Source: a virus
IMG/VR virus record: IMGVR_UViG_3300034418_007766
Coordinates: 1 to 64,000 of that record
Reading direction: 5' to 3' (one strand)
Length of the DNA: 64,000 bases
Shown here: positions 2,643-63,554 of the stretch, in pieces
Layout: each line of letters opens with the position of its first letter
Numbering within the stretch: the first letter of the stretch is position 1
The notes under the pieces: generated by a model
Told to the model about the DNA's origin: nothing
Database searches by the model: none
The model's input: the letters and a program-made list of their open reading frames with translations, nothing else
Position numbers and translations under genes: made by a program

Positions 2643-2851
2643 GAATCCATCTCTGTTTTAATTTCTGTAATCTTTTCGTTTGCTATACTAGCAGCCAATG
2701 ATTGAACTTGTTCTAGCAAGTGTTTACAGTGATCTTTGTCATATGTTTGATCTGCTAATTCACTAAATTCGTTTCTAACTCTATGAGCTTGAATACACAA
2801 ATCTTTCATTGCATTTATACGATCAATCCATTGTTCTATACTATGTTGCAA
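2630..2851 (-). CDS. Small hypothetical protein (73 aa), TTG start
   Basis: No family recognised; a helical, coiled-coil-like 73-residue protein. The start is a TTG at 2851 supported by a strong GGAGG ribosome-binding site 6-7 nt upstream, inside the 3' end of the amidinotransferase gene. The first ATG would be 14 codons later. Confidence 0.55.
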   Translation of the reverse strand: MQHSIEQWIDRINAMKDLCIQAHRVRNEFSELADQTYDKDHCKHLLEQVQSLAASIANEKITEIKTEMDSWKK

Positions 2852-3899
2852 AATAGTCCTCCAAACTGCCTTTACGCTTAGTGTCTAATGTAGCACAATG
2901 GAACCCTCCGCTCATGCTACGTGCTTGACGCATTGGAAGGCCTATTGTATCAATACCATGTTTGCCTAGTATACGTCTAAGTGCTTCTTGCTTTTCATCA
3001 ACAATAACAAGTTCTGGATTAACACTCAAAAAGTTTAATCCAATATAAGGTGAGCACGGAGCAACACCTGTATTTGCTGGCGGAACGTGTAAATCTTCTT
3101 CGCCAACCCAAATCTTATCCCAATCCTTAAAGATAGGTGGATACCAATCTTCACTAAGTCGTCCTGCATTAAACAACACTAGTCCTGGACGCAACGGCAA
3201 TACAGTGCTGTCAAAGTGTGCAAAACTGTAATACTTTTCTGCTACGTGGATACGATAGCCTCTTGGCTCAAGTATAGTTTTCAGCCACTCAAAACCAAGT
3301 TGGTTGCCACTATTGCTAACTTGGCAGAGAAGATCCCTACCAAGACGAACGATATTAGGAGCATCAAAAATAATTTCTTTGTTAACAAGCGTTGCTTCAC
3401 TGCGGTCCTCCAGTTGATAATTATCATCAGTTAGAATAGGTTTAGGAGCATTGATCCATTGTGTGCCTTCTTTCATCCAGCCATATAAATGTTTATAATA
3501 TGCTCTAGTTTCGAAATATCTTGCCCGCATTGGACTAGGACATTCAATAATCATATTGTCCAATGGCAACAGCAAATCACGTGGACAAAATGTATACCAA
3601 CCTGTAGTAGTCCATTCAGGTGTGCTAAACTTTTGGTTATGATCGATAGGATCAGGACGCATTGTTTTTACACCCAATCCTTGCAAACACTTTTCTAGTC
3701 CATCTAAATCTTCGTTTGCTTCGTCAACAATCCATTGCGCTATAGGCTGCCCGTCAAAGTGTTTGATATCTTCATAATCTTCACCGCCATAGATAAAACT
3801 ATGTGTGCTTTTATTCATAGTGGGATGCACACAGTTTTCTGCTGTGCCGATAATAATTTCTTCTAATGGATCCCAATCGTTATTACTTTGAACTGGCAA
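2841..3899 (-). CDS. Amidinotransferase, arginine:glycine / inosamine-phosphate (StrB) family
   Basis: Enzymes of this family move the amidino group of arginine to an amine acceptor through a Cys adduct. The 352-residue length and all landmarks are present: N-terminal EWDPLEE-like segment (DWDPLEEIIIG, 8-18), FDAPN with D179, GRDLL (187-191), AHFDST with H228 and D230, LNFLSVN (288-294), and catalytic C335 in SGGFHCAT. The start is TTG 3899 with AAGGA about 8 nt upstream, overlapping the PLP-enzyme stop by 17 nt. Neighbours are a PLP enzyme, a 2OG oxygenase and a radical SAM enzyme. The acceptor is unknown: glycine, an aminosugar or another amine. Confidence 0.88.
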   Translation of the reverse strand: MPVQSNNDWDPLEEIIIGTAENCVHPTMNKSTHSFIYGGEDYEDIKHFDGQPIAQWIVDEANEDLDGLEKCLQGLGVKTMRPDPIDHNQKFSTPEWTTTGWYTFCPRDLLLPLDNMIIECPSPMRARYFETRAYYKHLYGWMKEGTQWINAPKPILTDDNYQLEDRSEATLVNKEIIFDAPNIVRLGRDLLCQVSNSGNQLGFEWLKTILEPRGYRIHVAEKYYSFAHFDSTVLPLRPGLVLFNAGRLSEDWYPPIFKDWDKIWVGEEDLHVPPANTGVAPCSPYIGLNFLSVNPELVIVDEKQEALRRILGKHGIDTIGLPMRQARSMSGGFHCATLDTKRKGSLEDYFAT

Positions 3900-4785
3900 A
3901 ATCTAATCCTTTTATATATTGCTTGTGAAAACTTAATCTATTTGTATTTCCGCCGCGATTGTATTGGTTATACATGTTTTTATCATCTATGCCAAACAAC
4001 ACTGTTCTACTTGGATTTACTCCTACAGTATTACAGAAATTAAGTTGTTTGTCAATATATTTTTGTGAAATGTAATCTGGGGTAAAGTTGTTGAAATATT
4101 TTAATCCTAAAGCAGCACCAATTTTGTTATTGTAGTTGATTTTATGATACACAAACATTGTATCGTCGTCGTCTACTCTTGTATAACGCATACCGATTCT
4201 AGCATATGCAACAGGAAAACTTTTACTCAAACTAAATGTGACGTCTGTAATGCATCTATATGCTAAATCAAAATTAATATCTCTACATGCTCCAAAGTAT
4301 GCACAATCAACCAATACAGGAATATTCATATCGCAACACTTGCGCATCAATTCGTGATATTCAGTGTGCTTATCTCCTGTGTCTGCAAAAGGTAAACTTA
4401 TTACCACTGCATCTGCTTTGTGTAATGGTTCGTCTTCAATGTAAGCCCAAACAAACTTGTCACGCCATGCTAGTTTGTGATACATGTATTCGCCTTTGAA
4501 ACAACGGAATCTACGCTTTGCATTTTTCATATAAAATTTATCAAATACTTCTGTAGTGCCATTACTAAAACAACGATACTTGAAATCTTCTAATCCAGTA
4601 AAACTATTACTTGTGGTGCTGCGTATCCATGCATCGTATTCATGCAGATATTCGTCAATAACACTATCGCTATTGACGCACTGTAAATCAAACGGCTCTC
4701 TTAGTATTTTTATTGCTGCTGGATCTTGTATGGCAAATGCACTGCCAAAATCCATACCACGTTTATCATTGGGTATATCTGTCAT
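3883..4785 (-). CDS. PLP-dependent fold-type I aminotransferase-like enzyme
   Basis: About 300 residues with aminotransferase landmarks: SNGTTEV (about 74-80, cofactor phosphate loop), VLVDCAYFG with D160 (pyridine-nitrogen Asp), and the Schiff-base lysine K188 in FSLSKSF followed by ARIG (195-198). It is short for a class I/II aminotransferase (about 390), with compact N- and C-terminal parts. Start chosen at ATG 4785 (MTDIPND), preceded by GGATGAAG and overlapping the oxygenase stop by 20 nt; a frame-open extension upstream reads poorly. The product may supply the amine for the adjacent amidinotransferase (inference). Confidence 0.75.
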   Translation of the reverse strand: MTDIPNDKRGMDFGSAFAIQDPAAIKILREPFDLQCVNSDSVIDEYLHEYDAWIRSTTSNSFTGLEDFKYRCFSNGTTEVFDKFYMKNAKRRFRCFKGEYMYHKLAWRDKFVWAYIEDEPLHKADAVVISLPFADTGDKHTEYHELMRKCCDMNIPVLVDCAYFGACRDINFDLAYRCITDVTFSLSKSFPVAYARIGMRYTRVDDDDTMFVYHKINYNNKIGAALGLKYFNNFTPDYISQKYIDKQLNFCNTVGVNPSRTVLFGIDDKNMYNQYNRGGNTNRLSFHKQYIKGLDFASSK

Positions 4786-5380
4786 CTTCATCCAAGAAAG
4801 TAATTTGCGAAACAATACAATCACTTGGACCAAAATTAGCCATACCGTGCCATGTGTCACCTTTCCAAGTGTAAGTATCTCCAGCACTCCAATGAGTGTA
4901 TACTTCTTCACCTACTTGCAAAACTTGACCTCTATCCCAATCTTTCATCATTACAACAGTTCTACAAACATTATGTGCGTCATCTTCGCTGATTTGATTG
5001 TATTTTACAAATGTTGCATATGTATCAAAGTGCCACATTAAACTACAACCTGGTGTAAGTTTTAAAAAGTTGTAGTTAAAATGCATATGTGCATATGGTA
5101 TGATAAGACTGCTTAGTCCTTTTGTAAGTTCTGGTCTAATACACATGTAATGCAATGAACCTTCCTTAGGGACGCCCCATTGTTTATACATTGCTTCTAA
5201 TGCTTTTTTATTTTTTGTAGCAAACGTATCCCATGAACTATCTTCTGGAATCTCGTCTGTCATATAAGTTGCTTCCCAATTTAAGGTAAGCAAATCATTA
5301 TTACTCCAAGTGACATCATCTACTGCACTTTCTTCAGCACTGTGCGTTTGCCACTCCTCATAACTGCGCATGTCCATCAT
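4766..5380 (-). CDS. 2-oxoglutarate/Fe(II) oxygenase-like protein (aspartyl-hydroxylase type)
   Basis: The double-stranded beta-helix metal triad is visible: H117-x-D119 in SLMWHFDTYATF and a distal H178 in KGDTWHGMANFG. The layout resembles aspartyl/asparaginyl beta-hydroxylase-like and related small phage oxygenases. Substrate unknown. A second member lies at 18733-19236. It overlaps genes on both sides (ATGATG at the upstream stop; 20 nt downstream), and an internal promoter at 5480-5508 could express it apart from the radical SAM gene. Confidence 0.7.
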   Translation of the reverse strand: MMDMRSYEEWQTHSAEESAVDDVTWSNNDLLTLNWEATYMTDEIPEDSSWDTFATKNKKALEAMYKQWGVPKEGSLHYMCIRPELTKGLSSLIIPYAHMHFNYNFLKLTPGCSLMWHFDTYATFVKYNQISEDDAHNVCRTVVMMKDWDRGQVLQVGEEVYTHWSAGDTYTWKGDTWHGMANFGPSDCIVSQITFLDEDDRYTQ

Positions 5381-6318
5381 GCTTCTCCTTTCAAGTGCGC
5401 CTCAATATATTGCCTATTTGGTATTTCATATGTGTTTACTATTTCTATTAGTTTATCTTTATCAGACTGCTCTAAGTTTATTATATCTAACTTTTTCGGA
5501 TATGTCAAGAGATTTGTTGTCCAATTTGCATAATTTTTTGTAAATTCTGCAAGTTCTGGCAATCCGTGCCAGTTATTTTTATGTATAGTTGTATGTATTG
5601 TGTAATCAAATGTGCTGTGTATTTCTTGTAGTGTTTTTAACACTCTACTCCACACACTGCCATTTCTAACTTTTTCGTTTAATGCGCCTACACCGTCTAT
5701 ACTCACAGTAAAATGAACACGCTTACATTCATTCAAAAGAATATAATCTTCTTCAACTAGTTTATGCATACCGTTTGTAAAATATTCTACTTCAAGATCT
5801 TCTAAGGTATCGAATGACTCTAAAAACCGTTTGTGTCTATTGGTCATTAGAGGTTCGCCGCCCAAGAATACAACTTTGTTTACAGTTGCAGGAATATTTG
5901 TAAATTCTTCTGTGCTGGTAATGCCTTGTTTTAGAGGTAAGTCTGGATTCTTTTTAGCCCACCACGAACTGCTCCATTCTTCCCAACAGCCATCACAGGT
6001 TAAATCACATATGTTGTCAAAGCCTACTTCTAGATACTTTAGTTCTACTTTCTCTGTGCTGTATTCTTCATTGAATTTTTGTCTTAAACTTTGTTTGCCC
6101 AATATTTCTTCGTGCATACACTTAGCACAATTTGGATCATTTATTGTCCAATTATCTCGTAGGGTTTTGTATTCGTTGCTGTGTAATATATTACCTATAT
6201 CACCATCAAACGTTTGTATAGGTTGCTTATAACGACAGCAGGGGTAGACACGATTGCCTCCCCTAACATTAGTGTGATTGTATAATGCTGCGCAATTAGA
6301 ATGGAAGTGGGTCATCAT
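5377..6318 (-). CDS. Twitch/SPASM-type radical SAM protein
   Basis: A radical SAM enzyme of 313 residues. The SAM-cluster motif is C104-x3-C108-x2-C111 (NICDLTCDGC), followed by FLGGEPL (about 151-157) and an SIDGVG segment. Extra cysteines sit before the barrel (C9, C27, C28, C64, C67), consistent with an auxiliary Fe-S 'twitch' domain placed N-terminally. This architecture is known from phage and bacterial 'twitch domain-containing radical SAM' proteins without assigned reactions. It follows a small acidic protein with 23-nt overlap and precedes the oxygenase. Confidence 0.8.
   Translation of the reverse strand: MMTHFHSNCAALYNHTNVRGGNRVYPCCRYKQPIQTFDGDIGNILHSNEYKTLRDNWTINDPNCAKCMHEEILGKQSLRQKFNEEYSTEKVELKYLEVGFDNICDLTCDGCWEEWSSSWWAKKNPDLPLKQGITSTEEFTNIPATVNKVVFLGGEPLMTNRHKRFLESFDTLEDLEVEYFTNGMHKLVEEDYILLNECKRVHFTVSIDGVGALNEKVRNGSVWSRVLKTLQEIHSTFDYTIHTTIHKNNWHGLPELAEFTKNYANWTTNLLTYPKKLDIINLEQSDKDKLIEIVNTYEIPNRQYIEAHLKGEA
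5480..5508 (-). promoter_or_regulatory. Sigma70-like promoter inside the radical SAM gene
   Basis: On the minus strand, TTGACA (5508-5503), 17-bp spacer and a perfect TATAAT (5485-5480). It lies near the 3' end of the radical SAM gene and points at the oxygenase/PLP/amidinotransferase genes starting at 5380. Confidence 0.65.
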
Positions 6319-6658
6319 CCTCTTGGCGTCCTACCCAGTCTTGGTGCACCATACTGTAAATAGTTTTAAAATTATCGTATGCCATTTTTAGTGCAGGATA
6401 ATCCATGCACATGTCTTCTACTTTTGCAACACTAGGCATTATATCTTCAAACTCTTTTGGATCAAAAGTATTTGTATCAATGGTTAAAGTGATATCTCCA
6501 TCTAATGAAATTAAATCATCAAATGCACTGGTATCTATAGTTGCTGTTGTAATATCTGAAATTGTAGATGAGTCTATCGAATAAACAAATCCACTTTCGT
6601 CTACATTATCAGTTGTAATTGTGTAAGTTTCGTCCGAGTTCCAATTTGAATTGGTCAT
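6296..6658 (-). CDS. Acidic hypothetical phage protein (120 aa)
   Basis: A very acidic 120-residue protein with a Ser/Thr/Asp-rich N-terminal half containing two similar stretches (TIDTSAFDD and TIDTNTFDP) and a helical C-terminal half ending in DDDPLPF. I do not recognise a functional family. A GAGGAT ribosome-binding site precedes the ATG inside the galE 3' end (50-nt overlap), and the stop overlaps the radical SAM start. The tight coupling may mean a partner or substrate of that enzyme, but nothing in the sequence proves it. Confidence 0.6.
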   Translation of the reverse strand: MTNSNWNSDETYTITTDNVDESGFVYSIDSSTISDITTATIDTSAFDDLISLDGDITLTIDTNTFDPKEFEDIMPSVAKVEDMCMDYPALKMAYDNFKTIYSMVHQDWVGRQEDDDPLPF

Positions 6659-7490
6659 AACACATATCCTCTATTGTTTTATTTAACTTTACATGTTTAC
6701 TTAGTTCGTCAACTACACTGCTGACAGCATCCCCTGCTCTACGTTCCGATTCTACAACATTAAGTTTTTTACCAGTAACTTCTTGCATGGTTTTAATAAC
6801 TTCTCTTACACTGTAACCAACGTTAGAACCTAAACATTCGTATGGTGTATTAGTAGGACCAGAATTGATGGCATTTACAATAGCATCTGCAAGATCTACT
6901 ACATGAATATAATCACGTATACAAGTGCCATCTCTTGTGTTGTAGTCTGTGCCATATATTTCAATCTTATCACGTTTACCAACAGCATGTTCTGCTGCAA
7001 CTCTAATAAGATGTGTAGGTTCTCCTAGTTGTCTATTGACACCATCTGTGCCACTTACATTGAAGAATCTAAATATTGTGTAACCTTCTGCTTTTTCTTT
7101 GATTACATCTTCAGCACATACTTTGCTACGTGCATATGGGCTTGCCATTTCAAATGCACTACTAGTTCCAGCAAATAACACATGCGGTGTTCTAATGCTT
7201 TCAATAACATTTTTAGTGCCCATAACATTTTTTTGGTAATATTGTGTAGGATAAAGCATACTAGGACCTACTAAACTAAGTCCTGCCAAATGAACACATG
7301 CATCAGCCCATCCATGTAAAAATTTATCCATAATATCTTGTTTCCAAAACTTATGGCAATATTGTTCTACATCATTGTGCTCGCCATGTATGTTTATATC
7401 TAACCCATGGACTTCGTGTCCGTATTCTGCTAGAGCTCTACATACATGACTACCAATGTAACCTGATGCACCTGTAACAATTACCTTCAA
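6609..7490 (-). CDS. galE: NAD-dependent epimerase/dehydratase (GalE-like)
   Basis: An extended short-chain dehydrogenase of 293 residues. Seen: NAD-binding GASGYIG (7-13), the catalytic pair Y119-x3-K123 in SPYARSK with upstream Ser at 110-111, HLAGLS (68-73) and FRFFNVSGTD, which matches UDP-glucose/galactose epimerases. It is somewhat shorter than cellular GalE (about 330-340). Likely role: interconverting UDP-hexoses for the neighbouring glycosyltransferase. It overlaps that gene by 4 nt. Confidence 0.85.
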   Translation of the reverse strand: MKVIVTGASGYIGSHVCRALAEYGHEVHGLDINIHGEHNDVEQYCHKFWKQDIMDKFLHGWADACVHLAGLSLVGPSMLYPTQYYQKNVMGTKNVIESIRTPHVLFAGTSSAFEMASPYARSKVCAEDVIKEKAEGYTIFRFFNVSGTDGVNRQLGEPTHLIRVAAEHAVGKRDKIEIYGTDYNTRDGTCIRDYIHVVDLADAIVNAINSGPTNTPYECLGSNVGYSVREVIKTMQEVTGKKLNVVESERRAGDAVSSVVDELSKHVKLNKTIEDMCYDQFKLELGRNLHNYN

Positions 7491-8653
7491 TACTTGTTCT
7501 CCGAAACGTAGTCTCTGTAACGGTTTGTATCTCTACGCCATTGTTCACCATTACCTTGCATAATATCAATGTAACGTTCGATAGTTGCACTGGTCCAATC
7601 ACTGATTGCACCCATTTTTTCATGGGGTTTATCTAACAACAGCGTTAGTTTATCTTGTGCATCTTGTAAACTCCAAGGCACATACATTCTTGTATGATCG
7701 TTTGCAAAGATCTCTGGAAAACTTCTGTATGCTGGAAACAGCACGTTACATCCTAGTGCATCTGCTTCACTTACAGTATTACTAGTCCAGTCCTGTAATG
7801 CACAGTTAATCATAACCTTACTGTTATTAAGCATACTGTAATATTCATCTTTTTTAAGATTTTCGTAAATTGTTATCACACCATCTTTTTCTAAGTTTCT
7901 TGCCCTGTCAACGTATTTTTGATTATTACTACGCAAAGGCCCGCCTTGTAAAATAGCAAACTCAATATTATCTTCTGCATAGTTGCTTGCAAGATCCATA
8001 AAGAAATCTGGTTGTTTTTCTTGATCAAAACGTGCTGCAAACACAACTCTGTTTAAACGTTCATTCCAAGGAGTCAGATCTTCTCCACAACGTTCTTGCA
8101 CTTCTTGTTTATCAAATGCAAGTCCGCTGATGTTGTAGATAGGCGCTTTCCAATTTGCAATCTTCATATGTGCAACCATTTCTTCATTACTTGCTAAAAC
8201 ACCAGTAACAAACTCATTGCACATTTCTTCATACAAACTCATCCACTTGCTCATGCCCCAAACATGCACAAAGTCATCTGGGTCAATTGCTTGTGCCAAG
8301 CAGCGAATAAACACTTTAGGACGCTGTTTAGCAGGAATCTGATCCATAATATATGGCAACGATTCCATACCAGGCTGGAACATGTCTTCAAAGAAGATAA
8401 CATCTTCACCTGTAACTTCACCGTTACGCATCATTTGCACCAAGTTCATCATTTGCGACATTGCAAAGTAGGAACGGCCATGTGCATCTAGCACTTGGCC
8501 TATTTGGATTGCTTTTGTGTTATCGATTGTTGTTCCAGGAACATCTACCCAGTCAATGTTTCGTCGAGCAAATGCCCGACGAGACCATTCTGTAAGTTGT
8601 AGAGTATACCTGCCTTCATAGGGCTCCAAGCCCATGTAAAACAGTTTTCTCAT
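7487..8653 (-). CDS. Glycosyltransferase, GT-B/GT4-like
   Basis: A 388-residue protein with a GT-B pattern: a variable N-terminal domain, RVVFAARFDQEKQPDFFMDLA (about residues 203-223; typical start of the C-terminal nucleotide-sugar domain), and a late segment NTVSEADALGCNVLFPAYRSFPEIF that matches the E-x7-E donor-sugar motif region. It probably adds a sugar to phage DNA, a virion protein or a host glycan; the acceptor is unknown. Immediate 4-nt overlaps with galE and a small gene point to one transcription unit. Confidence 0.75.
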   Translation of the reverse strand: MRKLFYMGLEPYEGRYTLQLTEWSRRAFARRNIDWVDVPGTTIDNTKAIQIGQVLDAHGRSYFAMSQMMNLVQMMRNGEVTGEDVIFFEDMFQPGMESLPYIMDQIPAKQRPKVFIRCLAQAIDPDDFVHVWGMSKWMSLYEEMCNEFVTGVLASNEEMVAHMKIANWKAPIYNISGLAFDKQEVQERCGEDLTPWNERLNRVVFAARFDQEKQPDFFMDLASNYAEDNIEFAILQGGPLRSNNQKYVDRARNLEKDGVITIYENLKKDEYYSMLNNSKVMINCALQDWTSNTVSEADALGCNVLFPAYRSFPEIFANDHTRMYVPWSLQDAQDKLTLLLDKPHEKMGAISDWTSATIERYIDIMQGNGEQWRRDTNRYRDYVSENKY

Positions 8654-8865: not shown

Positions 8866-9327
8866 CTATGGGTAAACAATTTGACAGCCATTTTCGCCAT
8901 CTTCGGCGACATCAATAACAACAAAGCGGCCGGGATACTTTGCGTTAATTTGTGTATACAAGTCGTCTGCAATCATTTCGCAAGACTTGTGATTTAGTTC
9001 AATAGTTTTATCGTCATACAAACTTTCGAGCCAACGTTTAAACTGAATAAATTCAATATCTCTATCGTTATGTGTTACTTGAATTTGCACTTTAAAATGA
9101 AAGATGTGTCTATGAGCCACACCTAAGAAACTTACATCATCCCAACCACCAGTTGCAAGTGCCGGGTCGTCTTTTGCCGCAGGATACAAATGGATACCTT
9201 CTTTACGAAATGTTACCCAAATACTACGTTTTGCATTTTCTAAACTATTTGTCAATTTTTTATCTTCCTGTCGCATTTTCCAAAGTATCCAATCATAATA
9301 GCGTTCTGGTTCTTTGTTGTTACTCAT
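8866..9327 (-). CDS. queD: 6-carboxytetrahydropterin synthase-like (QueD/PTPS family)
   Basis: QueD converts dihydroneopterin triphosphate to 6-carboxytetrahydropterin, the step between FolE and QueE. Seen: a zinc-type AHRHIFHF segment (H72, H74), a DIEFIQFKRWLES stretch (about 90-102) matching the family's 'x-DF-x-x-LK' helix, SCEMIADDL (115-123) in place of PT-x-E-N-L-A, and a final VIDVAEDGENG-x-x-VY strand. The usual third zinc His and catalytic Cys are not obvious, so it may be divergent. The start is uncertain: the promoter -10 box lies 3 nt before ATG 9327 and there is no ribosome-binding site, so the transcript would be leaderless or the true start is ATG 9276. Confidence 0.7.
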   Translation of the reverse strand: MSNNKEPERYYDWILWKMRQEDKKLTNSLENAKRSIWVTFRKEGIHLYPAAKDDPALATGGWDDVSFLGVAHRHIFHFKVQIQVTHNDRDIEFIQFKRWLESLYDDKTIELNHKSCEMIADDLYTQINAKYPGRFVVIDVAEDGENGCQIVYP

Positions 9328-9329
9328 TA

Positions 9330-9358
9330 ACTATACTTTCATTTTGCAATTTTGTCAA
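9330..9358 (-). promoter_or_regulatory. Sigma70-like promoter for the queD-like gene
   Basis: On the minus strand, TTGACA (9358-9353), 17-bp spacer, TATAGT (9335-9330). The -10 box ends 3 nt before ATG 9327, so initiation would fall at or inside the annotated start. Confidence 0.65.
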
Positions 9359-9872
9359 GAGAAATAATTTCATCTGTAGTGTATTTAGACCAATGAGTAA
9401 ATCTTTCTTCCTTTTTTAAATCATGAATCTTATGAACCCAAACTCCTGGATTAGTTGCATCAAAATCTTTGTCATCGATTTTCAAACAAGCATTGTATCC
9501 TAACTGTTCAATATAAGGAATCTTAGCACTCAACATAGGAATAAATCTATTGTGTTCTGTATAACCAGATTCTAAGATCCACTCTGTATGCTCAATATCA
9601 AAATCTAAAGTTACCCAATATCCTTCCTTCAATAATGGAAAGACCATGCTATCATATGCTTCGTCAGGCTGATAGCTCATATTAGCACCAAGATAAATGT
9701 GTTTACAACCTTGTAAGGTTGCAATTTGAATAATTTCTTCAACTTCTTGCACACCTACAACAAATAATGTTTTTTTACCTTGTTGTGGAGTGCATTCTAC
9801 CTCTGTGCCAACAAAATATGCAACCTGTTCATTGTCGATGTCTATTACTTCTTGATCATAAGGTCGTTTCAT
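9339..9872 (-). CDS. Conserved-looking phage protein of unknown function (177 aa)
   Basis: No domain recognised with confidence. The protein has a beta-alpha layout: TLFVVGVQEVEEI (about 35-47), HIYLGANMS, WVTLDFDIEH and a C-terminal NPGVWVHKIHDL. It overlaps a 57-aa gene upstream by 4 nt. Its place between dpdA and the queD-like gene suggests, without proving, a link to base modification. Confidence 0.6.
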   Translation of the reverse strand: MKRPYDQEVIDIDNEQVAYFVGTEVECTPQQGKKTLFVVGVQEVEEIIQIATLQGCKHIYLGANMSYQPDEAYDSMVFPLLKEGYWVTLDFDIEHTEWILESGYTEHNRFIPMLSAKIPYIEQLGYNACLKIDDKDFDATNPGVWVHKIHDLKKEERFTHWSKYTTDEIISLDKIAK

Positions 9873-10241: not shown

Positions 10242-11711
10242 TTATAACTCCTCAAATAATTTTCCAAACATTGTGCTTGCATTTACAGTTTTTTTACCAA
10301 TGTTTAGCCGAGTTCCAATTACATGCATCCAGTATTTACTATACTTGTCTATTAATTGTAAACTTTTTTCTCTATTTTGTAAAGAAAAAATTTCGTCAAC
10401 TACTTCTCTAAATTTGACTATGCCCCAACCAGGAAAGTCTTTGTCATTGATAAGCATGTATGGAAACAGTCCAGCATCGTATTGTTCGTTAGCACGTTGA
10501 GTGCTTTCAATATGCATCCAAACATTGTGACCCATTTGCAATGCATAGCTAAATGAGTCCCAACTGGTTTTACCTTCTTTGCCAATCTTGTTGAGATCAC
10601 CTGGTTTATAGATACAAATGTCTTTCATACTGCAATGTTTGCTGATAGGCGAATCTTCAAAGTTTTCAAACACACCATCAGCCATTACTCCATCACTAAA
10701 CAACCGTGTATCAGTTGAATATTTTTTGTCATCAGCACTTGGACCCATCATATAACTCCATTTGCCTCTGTCGTCTAACCTAATAGTATGATAAACTTGT
10801 CCATTTGCTGTTGCAAGGAACGGTGATGCACAGTCATATGTTATCATAAAGTTTTTATTGTGATACTTACGGACTGCACGTTGTATGTCTGTAAGTAATA
10901 CAGCCCATTCTAGTTTACTTGTGCCCAAGAAATGCATAACATCGTGTAACCCTTCTTCAAGCAACCCGTCATGTATTTGATGCACAAGGCGCCTTAAGAT
11001 AAGATGCACATCACACATGTTCTGTCCACCCATTGCCCAACCATTAAAGTGTGTGTCTGGATATTTTTTTGGATCACAATAATCCTTAAATTCGTCATAC
11101 CAACTGTCTGCGTCAGCATGATTGCTACCTTGTAGAACATTTAGCACTTTAAAGTTGCCGCGGCGATTAGTCATATAGTATTTTGCATTGATGTGTGTTG
11201 CATCTACTGCATCTTGATAACTGTGAATGTTTGCTGCTTTTGCTGCTTTAGGATCTTGGAATGTCCAAGTTGGAATATCCAACATCATTCCATAGTCCAT
11301 GTATTCTTCCATCCAGTTTACAACTAGTTCACGCTTTTTAGCAGCCTTTGGACAGTTTGGATCAGTCCAGTCGCCTTCCCACAAGCCTTTTGCAATCTGG
11401 AAACCACCTGAGTCACCAAGTAGCCATGAATTATCTCTGTCGCGGTTACGCAACATGTCTTCTTTTTCACTGAACTTGTTTGTATCAAGTTCTGCGTGTC
11501 CTGCAGAATAGAGTGCCCACTTGTAGTGGAACGCTCCTTTATCTAGATTTAAAAAATTTAAACCTTCTACTCCACCGATACCTGTAGGAACTCTAGCAGG
11601 ATCAACGTATTCTCCAAAACGTTGTTTTCCTACAAATGTAGCATAAAAACCACTTATACTTGGAAGGAACACAGCATAGTCATTCTGTGTTTCGGTAAGG
11701 TTAATCTTCAT
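10242..11711 (-). CDS. dpdA: DpdA-like 7-deazaguanine DNA transglycosylase (TGT superfamily)
   Basis: A 489-residue homologue of tRNA-guanine transglycosylase. Seen: GDSGGFQ (D100-Q105, the substrate-binding aspartate loop), MLDIPTW with D145, VLQGSNHADADSWY (192-205), GWAMGGQ (224-230), HFLGTS (260-265) and ITYDCASPF with D293 as candidate nucleophile. Known phage DpdA proteins exchange guanine in DNA for a preQ0-derived base, protecting DNA from restriction. FolE, QueD-like and QueE genes in the same window support DNA rather than tRNA as target. A QueC, if needed, is not in view. The start overlaps the clamp gene stop by 1 nt. Confidence 0.85.
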   Translation of the reverse strand: MKINLTETQNDYAVFLPSISGFYATFVGKQRFGEYVDPARVPTGIGGVEGLNFLNLDKGAFHYKWALYSAGHAELDTNKFSEKEDMLRNRDRDNSWLLGDSGGFQIAKGLWEGDWTDPNCPKAAKKRELVVNWMEEYMDYGMMLDIPTWTFQDPKAAKAANIHSYQDAVDATHINAKYYMTNRRGNFKVLNVLQGSNHADADSWYDEFKDYCDPKKYPDTHFNGWAMGGQNMCDVHLILRRLVHQIHDGLLEEGLHDVMHFLGTSKLEWAVLLTDIQRAVRKYHNKNFMITYDCASPFLATANGQVYHTIRLDDRGKWSYMMGPSADDKKYSTDTRLFSDGVMADGVFENFEDSPISKHCSMKDICIYKPGDLNKIGKEGKTSWDSFSYALQMGHNVWMHIESTQRANEQYDAGLFPYMLINDKDFPGWGIVKFREVVDEIFSLQNREKSLQLIDKYSKYWMHVIGTRLNIGKKTVNASTMFGKLFEEL

Positions 11712-17698: not shown

Positions 17699-18736
17699 TT
17701 ACAACTTGTCTACATATGATTTTAATTTTAATATTTTTTCTTTATGTTTTATTGCGGAAGGATACCATACAGCTTCTTCGTCAAAGAATATGTCAGGCAA
17801 TCTAACATTTTTGACATTACGTAAAAATACTTTTTGGTTATGTAAGGCAATTTCTTGTGCTTGTTTATAAACATTTTTATCTAATTTTTTTATTTGCATT
17901 ATTAAATTATCTATACGTTCTTCTATTGTATCTAATTCATCAAAACTGTAATCAAAAATATTGTCATACAATTTATAACCGTCTTTTGTTAACAATTTGT
18001 TTGCATTTTTATAACCAATTATTACAAAAGGTTGTCTGTGTAATAGACAACTATAGGTTTTTTCTGTTAGTAGGGTGTTATTATTTATTTCTACATCAAA
18101 CCAACTTTCTGTGACAATATTAAAACAGCATTTTTGCCAAAGTTTCAATGGAGGGGGTGGATTGTCCTCATAGCTGTATACTAAGTCTGATCTATATTCT
18201 TCAGGTGGAAAAAACTTTTTTATTTTTTTACGCCATAGTTTATCAAACTGTGCTTTTTTGCTATCCTGTAAATATTTTTTGGTAAGTATATCCCATTCAG
18301 ACGTTTGTTCTTCTTTGTAACTTACTAATCCTTGTCTTAGTAATTTATTGTTGTAAAGTGATTCAGCTAGATAATCTCTGTGATAGCCTACACTACGCAT
18401 TTGACACAAAAACAAATGTTCTGGATCTTGCTGTCTATCGATAGTTGGTTGCATACACAACAACATATCGATATCAGGCCATGTTATATGATAGTCTTTA
18501 CTTCCAATATAGGGATCGGAATGATTGCAGTGCCAGAAAAACTTTTTTCCTTTGATTAAATTACAAAATCTTTTGTGTTCAACTTCAGACCAATACAGCT
18601 TGCCTGGCACTCCGGTTAAATCTAACCCTTCTTCAGTGTAAAATACAAAATGTATTTCTGTTGTTGCATCATGATCATGCCATTTTAGTTCAGGCTCAAC
18701 AATGCCATCTTCGTCAACAGAATATATTACTTTCAT
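17699..18736 (-). CDS. Glycosyltransferase-like protein, phage family
   Basis: A 345-residue protein whose C-terminal half contains FNIVTESWFD, LTEKTYSCLLHRQPFVIIG and a following ERIDNLIMQIKKL helix. This 'VTE...TEKT...PF[IV]' arrangement is found in phage and bacterial proteins related to exostosin/GT-type transferases. The same arrangement recurs at 37895-38974, so the two are probable paralogues. Donor and acceptor unknown. It overlaps the oxygenase stop by 4 nt. Confidence 0.55.
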   Translation of the reverse strand: MKVIYSVDEDGIVEPELKWHDHDATTEIHFVFYTEEGLDLTGVPGKLYWSEVEHKRFCNLIKGKKFFWHCNHSDPYIGSKDYHITWPDIDMLLCMQPTIDRQQDPEHLFLCQMRSVGYHRDYLAESLYNNKLLRQGLVSYKEEQTSEWDILTKKYLQDSKKAQFDKLWRKKIKKFFPPEEYRSDLVYSYEDNPPPPLKLWQKCCFNIVTESWFDVEINNNTLLTEKTYSCLLHRQPFVIIGYKNANKLLTKDGYKLYDNIFDYSFDELDTIEERIDNLIMQIKKLDKNVYKQAQEIALHNQKVFLRNVKNVRLPDIFFDEEAVWYPSAIKHKEKILKLKSYVDKL

Positions 18737-37573: not shown

Positions 37574-37914
37574 CAGTCTCCCTTTCCTGGGGCTTCGCTA
37601 AAATATTGCATTTTGCCTTCAACACCTTGCCATTGTTCCGCATCCTCAGGAACATCTTCTGGACGAGCAGTTGTAATATTAGGCCATACATCTGCCCACT
37701 TATTATTGAACTCTACCCATTGGTGCGCTCCATCTACTGTGTCAGGTAAAATAGCATCTGCAGGACATTCAGGTTCACATACTCCACAGTCGATGCATTC
37801 ATCTGGTTTGATTACCAACATGTTTTCACCTTCATAAAAACAGTCCACAGGACAAACCTCAACGCAGTCCATATGTTTACATTTAATACACTGATCATTT
37901 ACGATATATGTCAT
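37573..37914 (-). CDS. fdxA: Seven-iron ferredoxin (FdxA type)
   Basis: A small electron carrier with [3Fe-4S] and [4Fe-4S] clusters. The first site has C9, C17 and C21-P (with an additional C12), and the second C40-x2-C43-x2-C46-x3-C50-P. The 113-residue length and the C-terminal extension with WPNIT match FdxA of alphaproteobacteria. A phage copy may supply electrons to its three radical SAM enzymes or a flavoenzyme (inference). It lies between a DUF6356-like gene and a glycosyltransferase-like gene, with thyX close by. Confidence 0.92.
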
Positions 37915-38974
37915 TAAATACCTCTTCTAAATTTTTTATATGATTTGTATTATGCTGTAACACTTCTTTCATTTCATTAAGCATAATTTTACATTCATTA
38001 TAAGATAGATTTGCAATTTTGTCTATCTGATTTTTTATCTTTATTATTCTTTTGCGATGATCGTGCTCTGTGTCGTAGCTTTCGTCCCACCATTTTTCAA
38101 ATGTTTTAAATCCTAATTTTCGCAATAAATCTAAAGTTAATGGAGGTGCTGCAAGTATAAACGGTCTATGACAAAGCATTGGATCCAAAGTTTTTTCACT
38201 AAAATTTGCAAATTGGCTATCATAAAAAGTTTCGGTTACAATGCTACAAAAAGCATTTTGATAATTACTATGCATATCCTCTGTTTGAATTTCTTGATTA
38301 TTTGGATACAAAGGAATTTTAAGTTCAAGCAATTTATTTTGATAAAAATCTAATTCGTTTGCAGTATAGTTTCTACTATAATCTTGGTCTTTATTGTAAT
38401 AAGATATAATGCTAATGTCTTTATGATTTGCATATAAATGAGAAGCTAGTATTCTTCTGTGTATTTTATCTTTAAAATTTGGACAGAAAAATTTGAAATC
38501 AAATTCTTTTTTGAAATCTACTGTTATTTGTGATAAATTAGAAGATTCATACCAAAGATATGCATCTAAATAAGTCATATTGTCAAAGTATCTTTCTAAC
38601 CCTTGATTTGGCATATACTGATGAAATAAAATACCAAGACTATTGATAAATTCATATTCATTACAATACTTCTCAGGCATTCTTCCTAGATAAACTCTTT
38701 CAAAGTCTATAGCATCTTTAGGAAGAATATTTACAGGTTCAAAATTAAACCAACTTACTTTATATGGTCCTAAGTGTTGTAAAATTTCACTAAAATCGTG
38801 TTCTTCATCATCAGGTGGATCTTGAATAGTATCAAATTGAACTGCTATAGGAAGTTTAGCATTTTTTGCTAGAAATTTAACACCTTCGTGCCTATAGTCA
38901 TCAAATGGATCCATAGGCTGTAAATTTTGATCGACTACTAGATATTGGTTGTGTAAATTAACAAAGTAAATCAA
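37895..38974 (-). CDS. Glycosyltransferase-like protein, phage family (paralogue of 17699-18736)
   Basis: A 359-residue protein with [30 protein letters not shown] and [15 protein letters not shown] in the C-terminal third. The VTE, EKT and PF[IV] elements have the same order and spacing as in 17699-18736. Probable transferase, substrate unknown. Overlaps the clamp-loader stop by 4 nt and the ferredoxin start by 20 nt. Confidence 0.55.
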
Positions 38975-44155: not shown

Positions 44156-46030
44156 TTAATTACTTATCACTGGTTTTGCTTTGCAACGCCAGTATCGACT
44201 TTTTCTATCCCAATGATAAGCCTTTTGATACCATAGGACTGGATCCATTTTTTCAGTGTCATGATGATCAATTTCTATAACATCATTATTTATACCCAAC
44301 ATATTTTGTGCCACTGCTTTTTTAACATTTACCTGTATTGGATATTGTGTATCTCTATCACGGGTCATTAACACATTAAGCTCTACAATGTCTTCTACAT
44401 GGTCTAAATCATAACAATCATTTAAAAATTGTATTAGATCTTTCTTATATTGCTCTTTGTTATCATGTAGCACACAACTACTTGCACCTTTATATTCCCA
44501 GTAAATATCGTCGTCTCCTAAAACTTTTCTGCCCCAAAGTTTTTGATTGTTATATGTATCAATATGATGTTGTTCTGTTAATCTATATTCTTTGTGCAAT
44601 AGTGTGTTTGGATTTTGCACAATCCAACTGCGCAAGTCTTCAAAGAAGTCTGTTTCACGAATGCCTTTAGTTGCAAGATATTTTGCTAGGTAATGTCCCC
44701 ATCCATAGTAATACATTAATATTGCAACCCAACTAAACATAAAGCCTTGTAACACAGTTTCCCAGTCTGCCGTTCTTGTGCTAACCACTGCACCTGTGTA
44801 TTCAAAGATATAATTTTCAATATCATCTTCACGCAAATAAAAAGTATCTAATGGTATTTCTTTTACACCCATGTCATAACGTTTTTGATATTCTGCATTA
44901 CCCATTGTAGCATTGTAAGTAATTACAAGTGGATGTATCATCAAGTAACTGTCTTGGCCTAAGTCTATTAGCTTTTGCACATTTTCTTTTAAACTGTCAT
45001 AGGTTTCTTCTGGCATTGGCCAAATAAGTTCACTATATGTAGGAATATCTTCTGCTTTATATTTTTCTAAATATTGTGCGACTTGATCGTCATTGATGTT
45101 AAAACGTTCACTTGCTGCCAGTGTTGGATCATTGAAACTTTGCATAGCAAATGTAACACCTTTGAAAATATTTACTGGCGCACGTTTGTTCATCATTGCT
45201 ATTTCAAAGTTTCTATCTACATTGTTTTTTGCCCATGTTGCATCAAACCATTTAGGATAACCATACTTTGCTTTGGTGTCTAAAACTATTTGAGTAAGTT
45301 CTACATCACGTTTAAGCAATCCCCAGTTGCTATCACATACACTTACATACTCTATTTTATTTTTGCCCATCCATTCTATTTCTTGACGACAGCGTTCCAT
45401 ATCAAACAGGGTTAATTTGTTCCAATAACTGTCTCCAATATCACAAAATGCACAGTGATACGGACAACCACGTAAACTTTCCCAAGTAACTTGCCAAAGT
45501 GTATCTTCTGGATACTTTGCCATAATAGGCTCGTAAAACCCTTCTAGTATAGGACTAGGAATATCTGCTACACTTTTTCTACGTATTGCAGGATTTGGCA
45601 TGTGTGTTCTTGTTTGGGTATGCACAATACAGTCATACTCGCCAAGTGGTCTAGCAAGTATTTCTTTCATGGCATCTTCACCTTCACCATGCACTGCTAC
45701 ATCAAAGTCAGGATATTTTTCAAAAAAGTTTTTATCTCTTTTATCAATCTGTGGTCCACCAGTAACAATAATACAATCTGGATGCAAGCTCTTTACTGCT
45801 TTTGCAAGTTGTAGATTATATTCCCAATTCCAAATATAACTACTCATGACAACCATTTTAGGATTTATCATTCTTAGTGCATATTCATTAGGCTTTGGTT
45901 TTTCAATCAAAACATCCATTAAGTTCCAATTGTCATTTTTTCCATAACACCATTGATATCCAACAGCAAGAGGTAAGAATTTATTAGGACCGTAGGCATC
46001 ACTTGCTTGAACTAAGTAAATGTTATTCAT
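44156..46030 (-). CDS. B12-binding-domain radical SAM protein
   Basis: A 624-residue enzyme. N-terminal cobalamin-binding-like domain (about 50-140) with VVMSSYIWNWEYN and VTGGPQID and AVHGEGEDA; the radical SAM core starts at CPYHCAFC (C-x3-C-x2-C near 187-194), followed by EYVSVCDSNWG. The C-terminal about 230 residues carry no motif I know. B12-radical SAM enzymes often do methylations or ring changes; the substrate is unknown. It follows the Pol III alpha fragment with a 4-nt overlap. Confidence 0.85.
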   Translation of the reverse strand: MNNIYLVQASDAYGPNKFLPLAVGYQWCYGKNDNWNLMDVLIEKPKPNEYALRMINPKMVVMSSYIWNWEYNLQLAKAVKSLHPDCIIVTGGPQIDKRDKNFFEKYPDFDVAVHGEGEDAMKEILARPLGEYDCIVHTQTRTHMPNPAIRRKSVADIPSPILEGFYEPIMAKYPEDTLWQVTWESLRGCPYHCAFCDIGDSYWNKLTLFDMERCRQEIEWMGKNKIEYVSVCDSNWGLLKRDVELTQIVLDTKAKYGYPKWFDATWAKNNVDRNFEIAMMNKRAPVNIFKGVTFAMQSFNDPTLAASERFNINDDQVAQYLEKYKAEDIPTYSELIWPMPEETYDSLKENVQKLIDLGQDSYLMIHPLVITYNATMGNAEYQKRYDMGVKEIPLDTFYLREDDIENYIFEYTGAVVSTRTADWETVLQGFMFSWVAILMYYYGWGHYLAKYLATKGIRETDFFEDLRSWIVQNPNTLLHKEYRLTEQHHIDTYNNQKLWGRKVLGDDDIYWEYKGASSCVLHDNKEQYKKDLIQFLNDCYDLDHVEDIVELNVLMTRDRDTQYPIQVNVKKAVAQNMLGINNDVIEIDHHDTEKMDPVLWYQKAYHWDRKSRYWRCKAKPVISN

Positions 46031-61045: not shown

Positions 61046-61366
61046 GCTAGTTTTTATAATCTTAATGTAAATATAGTTATGTATATAAAAGAATATTTGA
61101 TAGATACTTGGCATATGCGCCGTAGTAAACTTGGTAATCAACATACCTATAATCGCAAAAAAACAATGGTAGTTTTACGTTGTGATTCATGTGATAAGGA
61201 ATTTTCACGTGAAAGAGGTAGTATGGACCCAAAACGTTTGAGTAATAACTATTTTCACGTTTGTGAAAACTGTGATGCAAAACGATTTGCACAACAAAAG
61301 GGAGTAGATAAACGTATGGTTTGGCAACTAAAAGCCAGCAGTGATTTACCCATTAACAAATTTTAG
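61043..61366 (+). CDS. Zinc-ribbon protein (107 or 94 aa)
   Basis: CDSCDKEF (C47, C50) and CENCDAKRF (C74, C77) form a two-knuckle zinc site; the middle RERGSMDPKRLSNNYFH is notable. I recall conserved proteins of this type in marine T4-like phages. Start uncertain: ATG 61043 or ATG 61082 (MYIKEYL), neither with a strong ribosome-binding site. Convergent with the sulfotransferase-like gene (21-nt overlap at the ends). Confidence 0.65.
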   Translation: MASFYNLNVNIVMYIKEYLIDTWHMRRSKLGNQHTYNRKKTMVVLRCDSCDKEFSRERGSMDPKRLSNNYFHVCENCDAKRFAQQKGVDKRMVWQLKASSDLPINKF

Positions 61367-61906
61367 CGTTCGGAAAAAATCAAAATCAAGTTGATATAAC
61401 TCGGTTAGATGAGCCATAACTTTGTATTTGTCTTTTTCAATAAAATCAAGTATCATTTTTTTGTATTTTTTCCTAAATGGTTCTTGATGAGTTTGCAAAA
61501 TTCTATCAAAGCAGTTATAATCTTGATTGATTTCTTCTAACACATTTTTGTGATACCAATATGGTTTGATATTCAACCCATGGTAATTGTAAAATGATGA
61601 TTGTAATGAAGTATGAAAGTCCCAAGGTTGCGGTTTATTTGTTAACCATTTTTGTAAATTTAATTTAATACCTTTATCACTCATAGGCTTCCATGGCGGA
61701 CCTTCAGGATAAGCAAAATATTCAACTGTGCCGCTAATCCATCTGTTCACAGGATCTCTAAATATAACAATTGCGTCTGTATTCTGAGGTAGTCCTATTT
61801 TATCGTTAAGCACAAACTGTTTGTTTAGTCCAAGCATTATGCTTTCGCTGCAATTTTTTGCAATAGTCAAAAAGGCTAGATTTCTAGCCTCATTATAAAA
61901 AATCAT
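61346..61906 (-). CDS. Sulfotransferase-like protein 1 (186 aa)
   Basis: N-terminal LAFLTIAKNCSES (about 10-22) fits the 5'-phosphosulfate loop; VIFRDPVNRWISG (about 47-59) fits the 3'-phosphate motif with R-x-P-x-x-R. Shorter than cellular sulfotransferases (about 250-300). May transfer sulfate from PAPS to a sugar or lipid. One of three such genes in this region. Confidence 0.65.
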   Translation of the reverse strand: MIFYNEARNLAFLTIAKNCSESIMLGLNKQFVLNDKIGLPQNTDAIVIFRDPVNRWISGTVEYFAYPEGPPWKPMSDKGIKLNLQKWLTNKPQPWDFHTSLQSSFYNYHGLNIKPYWYHKNVLEEINQDYNCFDRILQTHQEPFRKKYKKMILDFIEKDKYKVMAHLTELYQLDFDFFRTLKFVNG

Positions 61907-62064
61907 TCAGCTTTCCAAATTGTCCATGCGCCATAAGCAATAGCTGCATATGCAGCAAGTTTTGCAAACGGGCCAGCAATCAAAACAACTAGTCCAACTG
62001 CTATCAATGCTGCTCCATCCCAGGATGTGCGTTCATCTAGTCTTTTTGTGATCCATTTTTTCAT
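61903..62064 (-). CDS. Small membrane protein (53 aa)
   Basis: A charged N-terminus (MKKWITKRLDERTSWDG) and a hydrophobic region (about 18-48, AALIAVGLVVLIAGPFAKLAA...AIAYGAW). ATGA overlaps on both sides. Holin-like in size, but no lysis context; similar proteins occur next to fibre genes in marine phages (recollection). Confidence 0.65.
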   Translation of the reverse strand: MKKWITKRLDERTSWDGAALIAVGLVVLIAGPFAKLAAYAAIAYGAWTIWKAE

Positions 62065-62303
62065 GATAGTTTCCTTACCTTCTTCTCAAGCATTTCAATA
62101 CGCAGATCTTGAGCACGTAATTTTTCTTCTAATCCTTGCACGTAGGCTCTAGTAGGAACTTCACGTTCCATTCCATCCTCTCCCAACATGCTGTAATGAT
62201 CAGATCCTTGTCCTCTCAGACCTCCTAAAACTCTGTTAGGGTTTTTATCTTTTATAACACCTTGTGGTGTTTTAGATCCATACATTTTTTCCAAGTAGTT
62301 CAT
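62061..62303 (-). CDS. Small structural-looking protein (80 aa), C-terminal coiled coil
   Basis: Gly-rich N-terminal half (NRVLGGLRGQGSDHYSMLGE) and a C-terminal coiled coil (VQGLEEKLRAQDLRIEMLEKK). Probably virion-associated. 4-nt overlaps at each end. Confidence 0.6.
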   Translation of the reverse strand: MNYLEKMYGSKTPQGVIKDKNPNRVLGGLRGQGSDHYSMLGEDGMEREVPTRAYVQGLEEKLRAQDLRIEMLEKKVRKLS

Positions 62304-62974
62304 AAGGTATTTACCTCCCTTTCCACCTTGACATATGAAATAATATCATCAATAGCAGAAATTACTTCAGGCGTAATTTCTGATTTTATGTCGTCTTGTG
62401 TAATATCATTATTTTTATTTAAATTAAATAGTTCTAAACTTTCATCAACTGTTTTAATTGCCTTTACATGCTGTTGTTGATTTTCTATATCTACTATATA
62501 ACATTTGGCTCTTAAACTAAGAGGAATGATATAGTTGTAGGTAAAATATGGACTAAAAACACAGTGTGATTTCCACTGTGAATCACTATAGCCTGTTCTG
62601 TTTTGGGCATACATCATAGAAACATCAAAATTAAATGTTTGAACGTATTTGTTACGAAAATGCCATGTCCATGCTTTAACATAATTTACATGTTCTAACA
62701 CGCTGACCGATTTAGGATAATCAAAACCTCCTGGTAATTTTCCAGCCTTCATCCATCTATATCCACTGATATACCAATCATATGGATTTCTACTTAATAG
62801 TATGCATTTATCAAAGCGAGATATGCGATCATTGATAAATTTCAAATCCTCTCTGCCATACAATCCCAGAGCACCGTTAGTTCCTTTACGATAGCTGTGT
62901 TCTAAACTTGTGCTTGCTGTTTTACAAGGTGCACAAATTATCACTTTATTATCTGAATTATATATCCATAACAT
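62300..62974 (-). CDS. Sulfotransferase-like protein 2 (224 aa)
   Basis: VIICAPCKTASTSLEHSY (about 11-28) matches the PAPS 5'-phosphosulfate loop (PKTG[ST]T[ST]-like), and ILLSRNPYDWYISGYRW (about 58-74) the 3'-phosphate motif. Overlaps the following sulfotransferase-like gene by 17 nt. Confidence 0.7.
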   Translation of the reverse strand: MLWIYNSDNKVIICAPCKTASTSLEHSYRKGTNGALGLYGREDLKFINDRISRFDKCILLSRNPYDWYISGYRWMKAGKLPGGFDYPKSVSVLEHVNYVKAWTWHFRNKYVQTFNFDVSMMYAQNRTGYSDSQWKSHCVFSPYFTYNYIIPLSLRAKCYIVDIENQQQHVKAIKTVDESLELFNLNKNNDITQDDIKSEITPEVISAIDDIISYVKVEREVNTL

Positions 62975-63554
62975 AATGAAACCTTTTACAATAATCAGCA
63001 GATATTTTATATAATAAATCTTTTGATAGAGTATTTAAACGAGGATATGGTATCCGAGAACTAGTTTTGTTTAATAATGGAATGTTGTATATATCAAAAG
63101 TTTTAAAAAATTCATCAATATTTTCTAACTTTATAGGTATAGCATTTTCGTCACAATATTGATCTGGCATAACACTGCAATGATCGCTCCAGAAACCATC
63201 AAATGCTTGATAATTTTGTGTTCTTTCTAAATATACATCATGTAGATGCTTTTCAAAATTAGTATGATACTTAAAATGTTTTGGATTCTTTTGTAGACTT
63301 TGTAAGAACCTAAATCCACTTACAAGCCATTTTACAGGATGTCTTACAATTACATAATGCGTATAATCGTTTAGATTTCTATTTGTAAGTTCACATACTT
63401 TTAGAGTTTTTTCTAATGCTGATAAAGGTATCTCATCAAATTTTGGGTTTGCGTAAATATCTATCCAGTCTTTTGGTAAAGCTGTTGCAAAAGTTTCAGT
63501 GCCACATTTCATTGGCACTGATATGATTATACCTTTTTCGTCATTTACAAACAT
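62958..63554 (-). CDS. Sulfotransferase-like protein 3 (198 aa)
   Basis: IIISVPMKCGTETFATAL (about 9-26) and YVIVRHPVKWLVSGFRF (about 67-83) are the two PAPS-binding motifs. Paralogue of the gene at 62300-62974. Its ATG overlaps the UvsE stop. Confidence 0.7.
   Translation of the reverse strand: MFVNDEKGIIISVPMKCGTETFATALPKDWIDIYANPKFDEIPLSALEKTLKVCELTNRNLNDYTHYVIVRHPVKWLVSGFRFLQSLQKNPKHFKYHTNFEKHLHDVYLERTQNYQAFDGFWSDHCSVMPDQYCDENAIPIKLENIDEFFKTFDIYNIPLLNKTSSRIPYPRLNTLSKDLLYKISADYCKRFHYVMDI

Follow-up and report, generated by a model that had tools for sequence, protein, structure and literature searches.

A mobile four-gene amidinotransferase cassette in marine jumbo-type myoviruses that may build a guanidinylated glycan unit

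The DNA analysed here (the window) covers bases 1-64000 of the virus record IMGVR_UViG_3300034418_007766, which is 90,724 bases long. One overlapping run of genes on its minus strand (2841-6318) encodes an amidinotransferase, a pyridoxal phosphate (PLP) enzyme, a probable 2-oxoglutarate (2OG)- and Fe(II)-dependent oxygenase and a radical S-adenosylmethionine (SAM) enzyme. These four genes co-occur in other viral contigs far more often than chance neighbours would and are a real module, which is an insertion in the window and is mobile. We suggest, giving the proposal slightly less than an even chance, that they form a mobile biosynthetic cassette carried by a clade of marine jumbo-type myoviruses and make a guanidinylated amino-sugar or amino-acid unit for a host-surface or virion glycan. 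The nearest cultured phages by the DNA polymerase of the record are Sinorhizobium phage Phosso and Agrobacterium phage Atu_ph07 (48-51% identity), and related viral contigs reach 340 kb; the record is therefore most likely part of a larger genome, that of a jumbo-type myovirus. An earlier note on this DNA had named the classes of the four overlapping genes rightly, and these classes are well supported by family, fold and residue evidence. Its span (2841-6658) holds for the four genes but also took in an open reading frame (ORF) at 6296-6658 that belongs to no enzyme family and remains in genomes lacking the set.

The amidinotransferase (2841-3899, minus strand, 352 amino acids) is, as judged from its sequence, a well-supported member of the StrB/AGAT family. 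Nearly its full length (residues 4-349) aligns to StrB1 (1bwd, 1.5e-86), the closest solved relative, at 294 bits, followed by HsvA (217), SxtG (199) and AGAT (191). StrB1 guanidinylates an aminocyclitol phosphate. The catalytic Cys and His and the arginine-binding Asp of the family are present, and the nucleophile C335, together with H228, D230 and D108, is invariant in 20 phage proteins. The catalytic Asp known as D254 in AGAT corresponds to D179 of the window protein; it is Asp in 15 of the 20 phage proteins and Glu in five (L037, L040, L044, L051 and L055). Asn300 and Met302 of human AGAT, 300-flap positions linked to substrate use or binding (PMC4887976, PMC3684758), are replaced by Ser and Ala in the window protein.

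The PLP gene (3883-4791, minus strand, about 302 amino acids) is listed as an ORF extending to 4911 from a GTG, and the conserved start is an ATG at 4791 or 4785. Its product had no match in Pfam, weak Aminotran_1_2 matches being found in 12 of 21 relatives, and its sequence profile retrieved nothing relevant from the PDB, so the class was assigned from the fold. An AlphaFold model (pLDDT 87) matched HisC in Foldseek (E 7.9e-11), as well as threonine-phosphate decarboxylase (E about 1e-10) and C-S lyases. The residue set checked for fold type I consisted of the PLP lysine, the pyridine Asp, a Tyr, the phosphate Arg and the carboxylate Arg: K191, D163, R199 and R286 are invariant, and Y166 is kept in 20 of 21 sequences. 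On this model and these residues, the protein appears to be a HisC/CobD-like fold-type-I enzyme, a well-supported class, for which either transamination or decarboxylation may be proposed.

For the oxygenase-like protein (4766-5380, minus strand, 204 amino acids), no Pfam oxygenase family was found in the 17 members examined and a sequence profile gave no relevant PDB match, and the fold was used instead. The model is a cupin-type double-stranded beta-helix, and its fold matches include 2OG oxygenases, cupins and sugar isomerases. Because this fold is combined with an HxD...H motif (H117xD119...H178) that is invariant in the oxygenase-like proteins, the product is likely a 2OG-Fe(II) oxygenase. 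The radical SAM protein (5377-6318, minus strand, 313 amino acids) matched PF04055 at 41.1 bits (cut-off 29.5) and the twitch-domain subfamily NF033640 at 170.1, barely above the cut-off of 170. Its CxxxCxxC motif lies at residues 104, 108 and 111, and C9, C27, C28, C64 and C67 of its N-terminal twitch/SPASM-like domain are invariant. In the PDB its nearest relatives act on peptides (SkfB and YydG, for example), and a tblastn search of phage records with the protein gave no match.

A genome-neighbourhood search, which the earlier note had proposed, showed that the genes do co-occur. Viral contigs were scanned with the amidinotransferase, with alignments of the PLP and radical SAM proteins and with the transglycosylase (TGT)-like protein described below, giving four sets of loci; since loci from different scans may fall on one contig, distinct amidinotransferase proteins were counted as well. 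PLP and amidinotransferase genes were both present at 53 of the 56 radical SAM loci with full 4-kb flanks, and all four genes at 50 of them, and 52 of 60 PLP loci with such flanks had the amidinotransferase. Within 8 kb, 72 of 78 distinct amidinotransferase proteins were accompanied by the PLP gene and 54 by all three partners. The 72 PLP-linked amidinotransferases share 34-99.7% identity, and the linkage persists with PLP identity down to 27%. Gene order inside the module is variable and single genes have been swapped: in the L014-L019 group of loci the amidinotransferase is ~90% identical to that of the window, and the adjoining PLP and radical SAM proteins are ~31% and ~42% identical. The congruence between PLP and amidinotransferase distances is weak (rho 0.21; no value as high in 999 permutations), because the genes are exchanged singly. 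Taken with the conserved catalytic residues, the PLP-amidinotransferase linkage makes it plausible, as had been suggested, that an amine made by the PLP enzyme is guanidinylated.

The insertion could be recognized from 28 loci with an empty site, in which the gene order is TGT, g9339, g8866, glycosyltransferase, GalE, (g6296), phosphoribosyltransferase (PRT)/folE and queE, with 52-1468 bases between GalE and the next flanking gene. The site is filled by the four genes in 17 loci on 10 contigs. Because the gene order persists when the site is empty, the epimerase, glycosyltransferase, folE, queE and TGT-like genes belong to the backbone. On the minus strand of the window, the insertion is flanked on one side by the backbone ORF g6296 (6296-6658, 120 amino acids), which stays in most empty-site loci, and on the other by a PRT-like backbone gene (2079-2642). 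The GalE-like NAD-dependent epimerase (6609-7490; PF01370, 2.5e-35) and the group 1 glycosyltransferase (7487-8653; PF00534, 34.4 bits) also lie on the minus strand outside the module, and both occur near the TGT-like gene in 49 of 49 loci. Their adjacency had been put forward as an argument for an aminosugar acceptor; this argument fails, as both genes remain without the set at the 28 empty-site loci, and a functional link between them and the set was dismissed. The aminosugar acceptor draws support instead from copies of the module elsewhere and from loci in cellular genomes, and is moderately supported.

At least five genomic settings of the module were found. The commonest other setting is a large island with a cluster-4 gene, AspH-type hydroxylases (PF05118) and further radical SAM genes. 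Among 50 sampled loci, the cluster-4 gene was the commonest island partner (37 loci), and a fibre-like structural gene, judged by eye, was present in 20. The cluster-4 protein has a GT10-like motif and its family is unconfirmed; assignment as a GT10 fucosyltransferase was unproven, as it came only from a TEK...PFI motif and Pfam, PHROGs, PDB and phage records gave nothing. Two cluster-4 relatives, also without a recognised database family, are encoded in the window itself (17699-18736 and 37895-38974). Elsewhere the module sits between replication genes (L276), beside a PhoH-like gene (L054), or near GT8, a nucleotide-diphospho-sugar transferase and a cytidylyltransferase/mannose-6-phosphate isomerase fusion (L301-type copies). 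In 84,980 bacterial and archaeal genomes, relatives of the PLP protein occurred in three places only (L318-L320), in marine alphaproteobacterial single cells and a metagenome-assembled genome. The oxygenase adjoins the PLP gene in all three, and the surroundings are of glycan type in two. L320 is a classic sugar cluster, in which DegT, an RmlC-type epimerase and GT2 are present, and at L319 an acyltransferase adjoins the PLP/oxygenase pair.

Knowledge of the enzyme families gives the likely chemistry: oxidation or rearrangement of a skeleton, formation of an amine and amidino transfer from arginine. In the order of steps that we infer, a small precursor, which could be a sugar, a polyol or an amino acid, would have its carbon skeleton altered by the radical SAM enzyme and the oxygenase, the PLP enzyme would make or expose a primary amine by transamination or decarboxylation, and the amidinotransferase would transfer the amidino group of arginine to this amine, yielding ornithine and a guanidino compound. 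Glycosyltransferases would attach the product to a surface glycan, either the lipopolysaccharide or O-antigen of the host during infection or the fibres of the virion. A glycan destination is suggested by context, that is, by glycosyltransferases, fibre genes and cellular sugar clusters, together with the published view of the variable islands of marine T4-like phages as host recognition clusters (PMC7029224). The glycan reading also draws on the relationship to StrB1 and on two cultured phages described below, S-SCSM2R with its amidinotransferase among glycosyltransferases and Mosig with its PLP relative beside fibre genes. The broader statement that many marine jumbo-type viruses carry an exchangeable guanidino-sugar pathway, which adds positive charge to a host-surface or virion glycan, is possible but doubtful.

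Several observations weigh against a glycan unit. The window module lies outside the fibre island, and no gene that would turn the product into an activated nucleotide sugar is a constant companion of the module. Searches of Pfam, PDB and PHROGs did not confirm the cluster-4 protein as a glycosyltransferase. At L054, the nearest thing to a glycosyltransferase beside the oxygenase-PLP-amidinotransferase trio is a weak GT28-like gene, and no radical SAM gene is in reach; in a subset of the amidinotransferases, the catalytic Asp is replaced by Glu. Moreover, because R286 of the PLP enzyme fits an alpha-carboxylate, one of its substrates is probably an amino acid, possibly just the amino donor.

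In a rather unlikely alternative, the starting material would be a free amino acid or a fibre residue, and virion proteins would incorporate or carry the resulting guanidino amino acid, which would be arginine-like or hydroxylated. This reading would suit the frequent AspH-type neighbours, the carboxylate Arg of the HisC/CobD-like enzyme, the peptide-modifying relatives of the radical SAM protein and the fibre-like gene near 20 of 50 loci. However, the cellular relatives stand in sugar clusters, and the radical SAM gene is not adjoined by a constant precursor gene as in pathways for ribosomally synthesized and post-translationally modified peptides, since g6296, the sole small ORF beside it, is a backbone gene also found where the set is missing. 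Being also absent at the other sites of the module, g6296 was ruled out as a radical SAM substrate peptide. The module shares its enzyme classes with streptomycin, saxitoxin and phaseolotoxin-type pathways; nevertheless, no constant exporter, resistance or assembly-line gene was found in its neighbourhoods, and we regard as unlikely a diffusible guanidino natural product that would, for instance, inhibit competitors or host functions. Quite unlikely, too, is a metabolic helper that would serve arginine use or supply guanidinoacetate or a creatine-like compound for energy or osmotic balance. A virus-encoded guanidinoacetate methyltransferase in creatine synthesis was reported in a global ocean survey (PMC11360552), but a metabolic role leaves the tight linkage of PLP, oxygenase and radical SAM genes unexplained, and the Ser and Ala of the window protein stand at substrate-binding positions of AGAT (PMC4887976).

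The earlier note had also raised, more speculatively, a guanidino-deazaguanine base in DNA, for which the set would modify the 7-aminomethyl-deazaguanine derived from the folE, queE and TGT genes. Co-residence in the same viruses is the sole positive support for this idea: in the window and its relatives, TGT is on one side of the set and folE/queE on the other, and most module-bearing contigs longer than 110 kb carry TGT and folE as well, elsewhere on the contig, as expected of a clade backbone. The amidinotransferase was present, however, in only 6 of 23 TGT loci with full 8-kb flanks (missing in 17), and four of seven TGT contigs longer than 110 kb had no amidinotransferase at all. A tie between the set and the deazaguanine genes is thus disfavoured by the empty sites and by the TGT genomes without amidinotransferase. 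In addition, most module copies lie outside the deazaguanine block, no match to QueC was found in the 90.7-kb record fragment, and the cellular PLP/oxygenase pairs are in glycan-type clusters in two of three cases. A guanidino DNA base is weakly supported and very improbable.

We place the cassette with the glycan and host-recognition biosynthetic cassettes of phages. It resembles the streptomycin system of StrB1, an inosamine-phosphate amidinotransferase, in having the same Cys-His-Asp set and in the probable guanidinylation of a PLP-made amine, but its PLP enzyme is HisC/CobD-like rather than of the DegT/StsC type, and the radical SAM enzyme and the oxygenase are additional. The earlier note knew of no described phage pathway with this set, which is only partly right. 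No paper on the four-gene module itself was found in the open-licence literature searched, but related sets exist. Campylobacter phages CP220 and CPt10, described in 2010, carry interchangeable clusters with five radical SAM genes and an amidinotransferase (PMC2853527). In these too, an exchangeable phage module brings several radical SAM genes together with an amidinotransferase, whereas the amidinotransferases are 25-28% identical, the partners are others and no relative of the window PLP enzyme was detected there. In Synechococcus phage S-SCSM2R, an amidinotransferase (36% identity) is found among five annotated glycosyltransferases, and 2OG oxygenase, radical SAM and PLP genes share the same run; here, in contrast, the PLP gene is of the DegT family and several glycosyltransferases are interleaved. 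The host recognition cluster of pelagimyophages (PMC7029224) is similar in that glycosyltransferases and radical SAM cassettes occupy a variable island next to the tail fibres. In Pelagibacter phage Mosig (EXVC030M), a distant PLP relative lies within the fibre island, beside tail-fibre genes, but this phage belongs to a different virus group and has a carbamoyltransferase and no detected amidinotransferase.

If the glycan proposal is right, phages would make guanidinylated glycans, with effects on the surface charge of marine bacteria, on receptor recognition and on superinfection exclusion; guanidino-sugar glycan chemistry was described for no phage in the open-licence literature searched. 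The cassette would also offer a small group of enzymes for making a new guanidino compound, and it would serve as a testable model for the exchange of single enzyme genes by viral glycan islands.

Among the other genes of the record, the TGT/DpdA-like gene (window 10242-11711; recognized by its DSGGFQ motif and by a phage relative with a TGT annotation), FolE (582-1286), QueE (1-585) and a QueD-like ORF recognized by eye (record 65647-66123) make up a partial deazaguanine pathway of the clade backbone. The same virus thus shares FolE, QueE, QueD-like and TGT-like genes with the phage 7-deazaguanine DNA modification system (FolE/QueD/QueE/QueC/DpdA; PMC6884629), but they are an independent backbone among which the four-gene set has been inserted. 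The TGT-like gene had no match in a PDB profile search, and its relatives in Pseudomonas PA5oct-type phages are annotated only as hypothetical. Two uncharacterised genes, g8866 and g9339 (window 8866-9872), adjoin it in 49 of 49 loci with 4-kb flanks and are possible partners. Three ORFs of the B12-binding radical SAM type, recognized by eye (window 44156-46030; record 70008-71495 and 74869-76371), are kin to a frequent neighbour of the module. Finally, several sulfotransferase-like ORFs, also recognized by eye (window 61346-63554 and record 78516-79145), suggest sulfated glycans or lipids.

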